39,395 nt of DNA from contig JAAWDZ010000004.1 in the NCBI GenBank assembly GCA_022794015.1, positions 1-39,395 on the forward strand, written 5' to 3'. Shown piece after piece: positions 1-39,170 of the stretch. Under the pieces are notes generated by a model. The model was not told where the DNA came from. It made no database searches and saw only the letters and a program-made list of their open reading frames with translations. Source of the DNA: Eubacterium sp. GTDB taxonomy: Bacteria > Bacillota > Clostridia > Lachnospirales > Lachnospiraceae. A program made the translations under genes and the position numbers. Position 1 is the stretch's first letter. Every line of letters begins with the position of its first letter.

Positions 1-139
1 AGTTCAGCCTTCCGGCTTCACTGTTACGGAATCCGCCCATTTAAAGTTTGCCATACGGCAAAGGGGCGGATTCCACTTAAGCCTTTACGCATTCTCACGG
101 ACTTTGCAGCAGGTGCAAAGTCCTGGGCTGAACTGTTAC
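1..139. repeat. Hairpin-module mobile repeat, full-length copy (left tip outside window)
   Basis: The right end is GGCTGAACTGTTAC, ending at 139. The left edge AGTTCAGCC is its inverted partner and probably lacks only its first five bases (GTAAC), which lie before the window. Inside are a minimal terminal hairpin (1-27), a long stem pairing 28-38 with 64-74 around an inner hairpin (47-52 with 57-62), and a perfect 10-bp stem at roughly 100-124 (GGACTTTGCA with TGCAAAGTCC). Read on the minus strand it contains all the modules seen separately at 38950-39093, 39101-39170 and 25666-25697, so it looks like the fullest copy. Its left target duplication cannot be checked. It has no coding capacity. 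Confidence 0.8.
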
Positions 140-25665: not shown

Positions 25666-25697
25666 GGAACAGTGAAGCCGGAAGGCTGAACTGTTAC
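25666..25697. repeat. 32-bp minimal hairpin element with 8-bp target duplication
   Basis: GGAACAGTGAAGCC and GGCTGAACTGTTAC form an imperfect inverted repeat around GGAA. The flanks are AGTGAGAG (25658-25665) and AGTAAGAG (25698-25705), matching at 7 of 8 bases, as expected for an aged target duplication. The same sequence, inverted, forms the left part of the element at 1-139, and a variant forms the right part of 38950-39093. It lies between the aminopeptidase stop and the purE promoter. Confidence 0.7.
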
Positions 25698-35123: not shown

Positions 35124-35299
35124 GTTACTTTTCACACCCACGCCAGTCACTTCGCTGACTGGCGATGGGCCGATGCGTATAACATGGAAAGGCAGCCGTC
35201 CCTTGCCGTCAGGCAACTTTAAATGGACGGCTGCCCGTTGCATTTCACACCAAATCATATGAAATATCTGCAAAAACTGGCGTGGGTGTGAAATGTAAC
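35124..35299. mobile_element. 176-bp MITE with 24-bp inverted repeats and 8-bp target duplication
   Basis: The ends 35124-35147 and 35276-35299 are inverted repeats matching at 23 of 24 bases (GTTAC, then TTTCACACCCACGCCAGT). The direct repeat AGAATATC flanks it on both sides (35116-35123 and 35300-35307). Inside is an 8-bp hairpin GCCAGTCA/TGACTGGC (35142-35163) and a perfect 11-bp stem pairing 35191-35201 with 35225-35235 around an inner TTGCC/GGCAA hairpin and CTTTAAAT. That module is shared with the elements at 1-139 and 38950-39093. A reading frame across it is a by-product of the repeat. No transposase is present. Confidence 0.88.
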
Positions 35300-37963: not shown

Positions 37964-38953
37964 ATGGCAATATTTGGATTTGGACAAATGATACAGATTC
38001 TGAAGAAGAATCCCAAGAAAATTGTATTTACAGAAGGTACCGATTCGCGTATTCTGGAAGCGGCTTCCCGTCTTCTGGCGAGTAATTTCCTGCACCCGAT
38101 TCTGGTCGGGGATGAGGATGCCATTTTTGATGCATCCGAGGAATGTGGCTTTAACATCCGCGGTGCGGAGGTTATCGATCCGAGAAAGTTTGACCAGATG
38201 GACGAGATGGTTGAGATGTACTGTGAACTCCGTAAGAAAAAAGGAGTTACACCGGAGCAGGCAAGGGAAATTCTGGGACAGGCCAATATTTTTGGCACCA
38301 TGTTGGTTAAGATGGGTCTGGCAGACGCATTGCTGGGCGGTGCGACTTATTCTACGGCGGATACCGTACGTCCTGCACTGCAGCTAATTAAGACCAAGCC
38401 GGGCAACAGCATTGTATCCAGTGTATTTATTCTGATTCGCTCCAGGGCTACCGGTGACAACGAAGTACTGGCCATGGCAGATTGTGCGATCAATATCCGC
38501 CCGACTGAGGACGAGCTGGTAGAGATTGCAATCGAAGCGGCCGAATGTGCGAAGATTTTCGGTGTGGATCCGAAGATTGGCTTTTTAAGCTACTCCACCT
38601 TTGGCTCCGGCGAAGGCGAGGATGTGGATAAGATGCGCAATGCGGCAGTCAAGACCAGATTAAAAGCGCCGGATCTTGCAGTAGAGGGCGAGCTGCAGTT
38701 TGATGCTGCCGTATCTCCGCGTGTGGCGCGTACCAAATGCCCGGAATCCGAGCTGGCAGGCCATATCAATACATTTATTTTCCCGGATATCAGTGCAGGC
38801 AATATCGGATATAAGATTGCACAGCGCCTGGGTGGTTTTGAGGCATACGGACCGATTCTTTTGGGATTAAATGCGCCTGTAAACGACCTGTCTCGTGGGT
38901 GTAATGCATCCGAGGTATATTCTATGGCGATTATCACTGCAGCTTTGGCGTAA
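37964..38953 (+). CDS. pta: Phosphate acetyltransferase
   Basis: Pta interconverts acetyl-CoA and acetyl phosphate. The 329-residue protein has KIVFTEGTDSRILEAA near the N-terminus, GMLV-like GTMLVKMGLADALLGGATYSTADTVRPALQ, and the C-terminal FPDISAGNIGYKIAQRLGGFEAYGPILLGLNAPVNDLSRG signature region. The final codons GCA GCT TTG GCG TAA span the junction with an inserted repeat; the TAA is inside the repeat end. From the target duplication, the ancestral end was GCA GCT TTG GCA TAA, which encodes the same protein. The acetate kinase gene ackA that often follows pta is absent; tRNA genes come next. Confidence 0.96.
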   Translation: MAIFGFGQMIQILKKNPKKIVFTEGTDSRILEAASRLLASNFLHPILVGDEDAIFDASEECGFNIRGAEVIDPRKFDQMDEMVEMYCELRKKKGVTPEQAREILGQANIFGTMLVKMGLADALLGGATYSTADTVRPALQLIKTKPGNSIVSSVFILIRSRATGDNEVLAMADCAINIRPTEDELVEIAIEAAECAKIFGVDPKIGFLSYSTFGSGEGEDVDKMRNAAVKTRLKAPDLAVEGELQFDAAVSPRVARTKCPESELAGHINTFIFPDISAGNIGYKIAQRLGGFEAYGPILLGLNAPVNDLSRGCNASEVYSMAIITAALA

Positions 38954-39093
38954 CAGTTCAGCCTGCAACTGCGCGCTGGCTGCGCAGTTAGCAGCCAGTA
39001 AAGCAGAAAAGCCAGGAATCCGCTCTCTTTGCCACAGGCAAACTTCTAATGGGGCGGATTTTGTAACAGCGAAGCCGTAGGCTGAACTGATAC
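38950..39093. mobile_element. Hairpin-module element A (144 bp) at the end of pta
   Basis: It begins GTAACAGTTCAGCC and ends GGCTGAACTGATAC, an inverted repeat. The flanks are GCTTTGGC on the left (38942-38949) and, with element B removed, GCTTTGGC on the right, a perfect 8-bp duplication. Inside are an AACTGCGC/GCGCAGTT hairpin, the central stem (GGAATCCGC with GGGCGGATTTT and inner TTTGCC/GGCAAA) and a right-hand minimal hairpin like that at 25666-25697. Its first bases provide the pta stop codon. Confidence 0.85.
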
Positions 39094-39100
39094 GCTTTGG

Positions 39101-39170
39101 GTAACAGTTCAGTCCGGGATTTTGCACCTGCTGCAAAGTCCGTGAGAATGCGTAAAGGCTGAACTGTTAC
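39101..39170. mobile_element. Hairpin-module element B (70 bp), inserted next to element A
   Basis: It runs from GTAACAGTTCAG to GGCTGAACTGTTAC and is flanked by a perfect 8-bp duplication, CGCTTTGG (39093-39100 and 39171-39178). The first base of the duplication is the last base of element A, so B inserted after A. Inside is a 10-bp hairpin ending TGCAAAGTCC and GTGAGAATGCGTAAAGG, both shared with the right half of the element at 1-139 in opposite orientation. It lacks the central module. Confidence 0.85.

Follow-up and report, generated by a model that had tools for sequence, protein, structure and literature searches.

Elements in the window and their shared architecture

The DNA analyzed here (the window, 39,395 nucleotides of a Eubacterium sp. 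contig of the Lachnospiraceae) carries, among its genes, copies of three repeat families, A, B, and C (Table 1). The family B element is flanked by genes for an FtsX-like permease and a methionine-synthase-like protein, and the family C element provides, through its GTAAC end, the TAA stop of a phosphotransacetylase-like gene; the neighbors of a solitary right-end fragment are genes for an M29-peptidase-like protein and an AIR carboxylase. The three copies are members of a single superfamily of MITEs, small transposons of the non-autonomous kind. Terminal inverted repeats (TIRs) are found in the elements, which are mostly 130-176 bp long, start with GTAAC or GTTAC, finish with the inverted copy, and make 8-bp target duplications (TSDs); their ends resemble GTWACWGTTCA. 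In its own genome, family A is matched 40 times, and most complete copies there are 144 bp long; complete copies carry an 8-bp TSD. A fourth family, D, occurs in the same genome (G000:C79:22560-22704 and C4:11594-11738), with different outer and inner stems around an identical CTTTAAAT.

Table 1. Coordinates and strands of the elements in the window and of their parts
Feature	Position	Strand	Remarks
Family A element	1..139	-	5 bp of the right TIR missing at the contig start
Family A module	28..74	-	11-bp outer stem, C, 6-bp inner hairpin, CTTTAAAT, closing strand
Family A hairpin 1	99..123	-	10-bp stem, 5-nt loop; repeat search and fold
Family A left TIR, GTAACAGTTCAGCC	126..139	-	Sequence comparison
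Solitary right-end fragment (inner TIR and right TIR), family A-like	25670..25697	+	Sequence match
Family B element, 176 bp	35124..35299	+	AGAATATC flanks both sides
Family B module	35191..35235	+	Sequence reading, covariance model, fold
Family B inner TIR copy to right TIR	35237..35299	+	97% identical stretch also exists alone elsewhere
Family C element	38950..39093	+	At the stop codon of the phosphotransacetylase-like gene
Family C module	39016..39061	+	Stem held through G-T pairs
70-bp element, TIRs and hairpin 1, without module	39101..39170	+	TSD CGCTTTGG

Each of the three elements contains a folded module composed of an 11-bp outer stem, 0-1 nt, an inner hairpin, a 3' bulge (CTTNNAAT), and the closing strand. 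Direct reading gives GGAATCCGCCC C TTTGCC GTAT GGCAAA CTTTAAAT GGGCGGATTCC for family A and GGCAGCCGTCC C TTGCC GTCA GGCAA CTTTAAAT GGACGGCTGCC for family B, confirming the common layout that the first-pass annotation had described for these two copies, with one amendment: the inner TTGCC/GGCAA hairpin holds for family B, whereas the inner stem of family A has 6 bp and not 5. The three compensated differences that it had reported between the outer stems fall at pairs 3, 5, and 9 (A-T to C-G, T-A to G-C, and C-G to T-A, each changed on both strands), and the G-T-paired stem that it had placed within the family C element is likewise there. When compared with dinucleotide shuffles, the two perfect modules of the window fold with z = -5.42 and -5.51.

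Read by eye on the folding strand, the elements run from a TIR through hairpin 1, a linker, the module, and an inner TIR copy to the right TIR, and this order is common to families A-D and most of the relatives that were read. The stem of hairpin 1 differs between families around a short loop, and the linker often opens with CGTRAGAA (both by eye). In the loci examined there are 93 distinct complete elements (TSD of at least 7/8), 83 of which have a module-like core under a loose pattern; a GTWAC-like inner copy follows the module in 74 of these 83, and the ends of the 83 lie close to GTWACWGTTCA. The families would therefore be diverged forms of one superfamily, not unrelated elements that share a module, and the shared order also fits common descent, which we consider likely. 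The earlier proposal that the module may have moved between elements, made because their terminal repeats differ, finds little support here, since the ends are variants that diverged from a single sequence and the element order is shared. The module layout was seen with unrelated ends only in a second, leader-located repeat outside the window (see below).

Parts of the elements also occur as short elements with their own TSD. The right part of family B has a standalone relative at G000:C53:35375-35437 (TSD GTTACCAT), and a TIR with hairpin 1 stands alone at C33:36187-36256, as it does in the 70-bp element of the window. At four loci (L208, L241, L247, and L273) another hairpin element (GGCGCTAAACGTCC...AGCGCC and a tail) lies within the module apex, and at three of these loci the displayed stretch continues beyond it into the closing strand GGGCAGATTCC; the 3' bulge of L251 and L256 holds a small hairpin around AATTGAGCTTTGCTCAAT, either as an insertion or in place of some of its letters. 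The Clostridiales-1 RNA of Rfam (105.8 bits) is found near one module copy, at L123 1679-1835 (minus).

Among 22 TIR pairs in stretches of the own genome, 19 have identical 8-bp flanks, one agrees at 7/8 and one at 6/8, the last being a mis-pairing nested within element B. As a control, 8-mers taken farther out from these pairs agree at 1-4 positions. An 8/8 TSD is present in 63 of the 93 distinct complete elements, for which 7/8 was required. The family C site is empty in 7 of 15 same-genus genomes, a set that includes the own genome (the seven are G1108, G1110, G1112, G1114, G1115, G1117, and G143): there the flanks of 38950-39170 lie at most 12 bp apart or overlap by 8 bp, compared with a gap of about 228 bp between the same flanks in the window, and the junction sequences were read for six of the seven (all but G1114). 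The remaining same-genus genomes have a longer gap or leave the site uncovered. This comparison concerns the family C element and the 70-bp element as a pair, and no match spans the site of element B. We regard it as nearly certain that the elements are real, mobile, and structurally conserved. The family D copy at C4:11594-11738 is inserted into a family A terminal repeat (TSD AACAGTTC), and thus the families move into each other.

Covariation of the central module

A covariance model (R1), trained on eight sequences, four each of families A and C, recovered the family B copy at 42.9 bits and family D at 21.1 bits. Across 75 distinct aligned sequences, changes on both sides occur at 17 of 17 pairs, 98.0% of 1222 cells are paired, double-changed cells number 244 compared with 20 and 23 when the partners are slid by one column, and on each of five measures none of 500 shuffles attains the observed value; these numbers are biased somewhat because a model of the structure itself served both to find and to align the sequences, and because two minus-strand rows come from loci already included. 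In 73 distinct aligned modules, the 3' bulge has 8 nt in 56 and 6-9 nt in all, with CTTNNAAT as its consensus and mostly CTT..AAT letters; opposite it, the 5' side has a C in 44, a T in 3, and nothing in 26, and a GNA loop closes 50. The letters of the stems turn over while the pairing, the inner hairpin, and the 3' bulge persist, and it is therefore the folded form that is conserved.

A second sample was gathered by an exact hairpin-1 pattern in genome contigs, without use of the module (at least 117 loci, with 121 matches among those listed). A strict module is present in 73 of the 121 listed matches vs 2 of 121 in flanking DNA, and 6 matches are cut by contig ends; 28 different 9-nt arms occur in the sample, of which a few are linker windows, and 6 of the 73 passing matches were apparently scored on a linker window. 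By eye, the 42 failing matches divide into about 14 of a family with an GCAAATCC stem and an 8-bp outer stem, 2 with a perfect outer stem and a damaged inner hairpin, 5 with insertions, and 21 that are cut, partial, or damaged. Broken pairs are seen in recent copies. Exchanging the outer-stem arms among 44 unique arm pairs lowered the score from 8.45 for the own partners to 7.28 for permuted ones, and the own value was reached in none of 10000 permutations. Selection of this set used the inner hairpin but made no use of the outer stem. Of the first 81 matches (78 of which were parsed, at 80 of 117 hairpin-1 loci), 77 were long enough, 55 had an inner-hairpin anchor, and 44 were unique.

The view of the first-pass annotation that compensatory change marks selection on the folded form is strongly supported by these results, given the changes at every pair of the model and the agreement of the independent sample; the outcome that the annotation had named as refuting it, stem changes no more paired than expected or broken-stemmed copies equally common, did not appear. 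Paired changes might also arise without any selection, if arms are simply copied onto each other by template switching at quasi-palindromes. Such copying would suit the observations that hairpin 1 and the TIRs, too, differ between families with their pairing kept (by eye), that in the outer stem of family A mispairs are seen in four copies and one-sided G-U changes in two, next to a single copy whose change is paired, and that one copy (L288) has lost the bulge exactly to become a perfect long hairpin. However, arm copying would tend to erase a one-sided bulge, which is instead kept opposite 0-1 nt in the 73 aligned modules, and the leader-located repeat holds fixed G-U pairs; we therefore consider arm copying alone to be an improbable source of the pattern.

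Strand, gene context, and a second repeat in leaders

In the hairpin-1 sample, the module strand between co-directional genes is sense at 33 sites and antisense at 12 (P = 0.0025), and a further 25 sites lie between divergent and 4 between convergent genes, compared with a divergent:convergent background of 73:56 in all 60-600 nt gaps of the same loci (P = 0.003); in these counts the ORFs were called by a simple script, 47 of the 121 matches have no called gene on one or both sides, and copies within one genome are not independent. The orientation bias is small or absent in smaller samples (7:4 for own-genome family A, 1:2 for own-genome family C, and 5:5 with one locus per genome), and some copies appear by eye to lie upstream of promoters rather than in the leader. 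When the elements were searched for promoters and terminators, the only overlap was with a weak minus-strand promoter match (9/12) in element B, and promoter-like sites numbered 2, 2, and 1 against shuffle means of 0.8, 0.8, and 0.5.

Departures from canonical pairing in the module comprise 28 G-U and 11 A-C (P = 0.009) in copies gathered by BLAST (16:7) or by hairpin 1 (12:4, outer stem only, from 35 distinct outer stems that also have 14 other departures). This excess would favor the strand read here as the one that folds, but the TIRs, taken as a control, have 12:7 and do not differ from the module (P = 0.55); the ratio is 6:5 in hairpin 1 and 18:10 in model-gathered rows. The sense strand has a slightly lower folding energy, by a mean of 0.62 kcal/mol across 64 modules (P = 0.015), being lower in 23 where the antisense strand is lower in 10. 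For whole elements, family A folds at -61.2 (sense) and -62.9 (antisense) and family C at -67.0 (sense) and -61.5 (antisense). A small ORF through the linker was considered and rejected, as by eye it is not kept between families, and a pseudoknot between the hairpin-1 loop (ATTTA) and the bulge (TAAAT) was found by eye to fit some copies and fail in others.

The R1 search also recovered modules in a different setting, where a first hairpin such as TGTCAAG...CTTGACATG is followed by AGCGTCAGCCC...GGGCTGATGTTC. Loci of this two-hairpin repeat include L163, L161, L111, L116, L160, L162, L173, and L174, among others; it is present in 8 of 397 same-family genomes, with up to at least 11 copies each, and in places forms an 84-bp tandem array (L163). 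Its alignment of 11 sequences has 30 pairs, 18 of them with double changes, and a G-U pair is fixed in each hairpin in 11 of 11 rows. We examined 45 of the 51 listed places, counting each array once: a sense ORF begins within 110 nt of the repeat in 23, and five more have a start codon by eye (about 28 of 45), and a script-called antisense ORF follows in 14, one of which (L361) is among the five. The genes nearby, named by eye, are varied and include transporters, a microcompartment-like protein, and a dehydrogenase. This repeat and the MITE module may share ancestry or may have converged.

The orientation bias and the leader-located repeat lean toward RNA, and away from single-stranded DNA, as the level at which the fold works. 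The fold could otherwise serve as single-stranded DNA or an extruded cruciform in transposition, for example as a landmark for the transposase or a host factor, and the upstream placement would then reflect target choice only. The module does occur in elements with clear transposon anatomy, where the GTWAC-like inner copy beside it is largely retained, G-T pairs form in DNA too, and the module is not alone in its G-U excess. Against a role in transposition, elements without a module have moved as well (10 of the 93 complete elements lack it by pattern, including 70-bp ones with a TSD), the leader-located repeat keeps the layout without such TIRs, and DDE transposases of the IS66 kind are not known to require internal hairpins. 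On balance we consider this DNA-level role rather unlikely.

We instead suggest that the module, the structural core of a Lachnospiraceae MITE superfamily, may act mainly as RNA of the strand bearing CTTNNAAT. With elements mostly upstream of genes and the module strand sense, leader or readthrough transcripts would include the fold, which would most probably shape these leaders by shielding, processing, or effects on translation; insertions that shape leaders in this way may be tolerable or useful, and such copies would persist. A more specific form of leader function, in which the module responds to a ligand or a protein, as a mobile RNA of riboswitch-like or protein-binding type that spread both as a MITE core and as a leader repeat, would fit the conserved bulge letters and the frequent GNA loops, as well as the varied genes that the leader repeat precedes, in some cases as tandem arrays. 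The Rfam searches, however, gave no match to the elements, the downstream genes do not by eye resemble one pathway, and for a ligand pocket the core letters are few, which makes a responsive element very unlikely in our estimation. A broader possibility, which we put forward tentatively, is that the module is an undescribed Lachnospiraceae RNA domain of mRNA leaders that travels as a transposon core, one lineage being MITEs with IS66-like ends and another a leader repeat whose first hairpin is its own. If this were true, a mobile element would carry and spread a ready-made 5' leader.

Candidate transposase, distribution, and relation to known elements

The sections cited from two papers give 8-bp duplications and GTAA ends as features of IS66 (PMC11946415, PMC3916326), and one of them gives the ends as starting with GTAAGCG (PMC11946415). 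The 8-bp duplication and 5'-GTAA end are matched by the GTAAC-ended families, and the other families have GTTA. ISDge4, of the ISBst12 group, is reported in the cited portion of its description with the ends GTAACTGCTCAGCA and GTGACTACTCAGCA and an 8-bp repeat (PMC12898284); the duplication length is shared, and the two ends are identical to the element TIR GTAACAGTTCAGCC at 11/14 and 9/14 positions. Unlike IS66 and ISBst12 elements as described in these sections, the MITEs lack a transposase gene, and their ends are not GTAAGCG. The IS66 gene (PF03050) was not found in the own genome, whose assembly is 86.5% complete, and is present in 6 of 20 genomes searched, 19 of which are carriers. A scan of 1.69 Mb of DNA around loci of many genomes, a total that counts overlapping stretches, held nothing of 400-6000 bp that has these ends and a TSD. 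Among eight stretches examined, carrier G214 has two complete IS66 elements with 8-bp duplications (L416 3254-6006 and L421 4811-7445), both with TIR letters unlike the MITE ends. From the ends and the duplication length, we infer that an ISBst12-like transposase of the IS66 family may move the elements in trans. As for the whole proposal, in which the fold acts at the RNA level in leaders and an IS66/ISBst12-type transposase moves the elements in trans, we judge the case to be evenly poised.

R1 has matches in 35 of 397 genomes of the family, the own genome among them (E <= 0.01; some of these are the second repeat), and in 34 of the 334 genera sampled in the family. R2 (E <= 1e-4) has matches in 27 of 392 genomes of the order, two of them outside the family, and one of these two, equal on both strands, is probably due to chance; in the phylum it has matches in 2 of 398 genomes, both inside the Lachnospiraceae. 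The superfamily is almost confined to the Lachnospiraceae. Named carriers, by record title, are Eubacterium plexicaudatum ASF492, Parablautia muri D42-62, and Mediterraneibacter agrestimuris DSM 111629. Viral contigs held no exact match to the hairpin-1 pattern, and plasmids searched with B and phages searched with C gave no match. In Rfam searches of the window at the gathering cut-off and of 13 loci at a relaxed threshold, nothing on the elements reached a gathering score, and in an open-access literature search we recognized no publication that treats these elements.

Folded MITEs are already known. ERIC, Correia/NEMIS, BOX, RUP, and SPRITE are structured bacterial MITEs with predicted folds (PMC2229807, PMC3049150, PMC10969869), and the present elements share with them, as described in the cited sections, a length of about 100-200 bp, TIRs, target duplications, strongly folded transcripts, intergenic placement, and many copies. 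They differ from those descriptions in that a separate internal module is backed by paired changes, and these extend over many element families and genera; the same sections make no mention of covariation or, where it was searched for, of compensatory change. BOX is the closest of the known elements in its modularity, and one BOX element is reported in the cited text with two T-box riboswitches. The Caulobacter CIR repeats resemble the elements in having two hairpin arms and a linker within a repeated element, although CIR is described there with a GANTC motif at the terminal loop, and the module here has a 3' bulge with no such known role (PMC2229807). The paired changes at all pairs provide a handle on whether the folds of MITEs are selected, and at what level, and carriage by named strains makes the question testable. 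What is new relative to these systems is the covarying internal core, together with the like-shaped core of a leader repeat.
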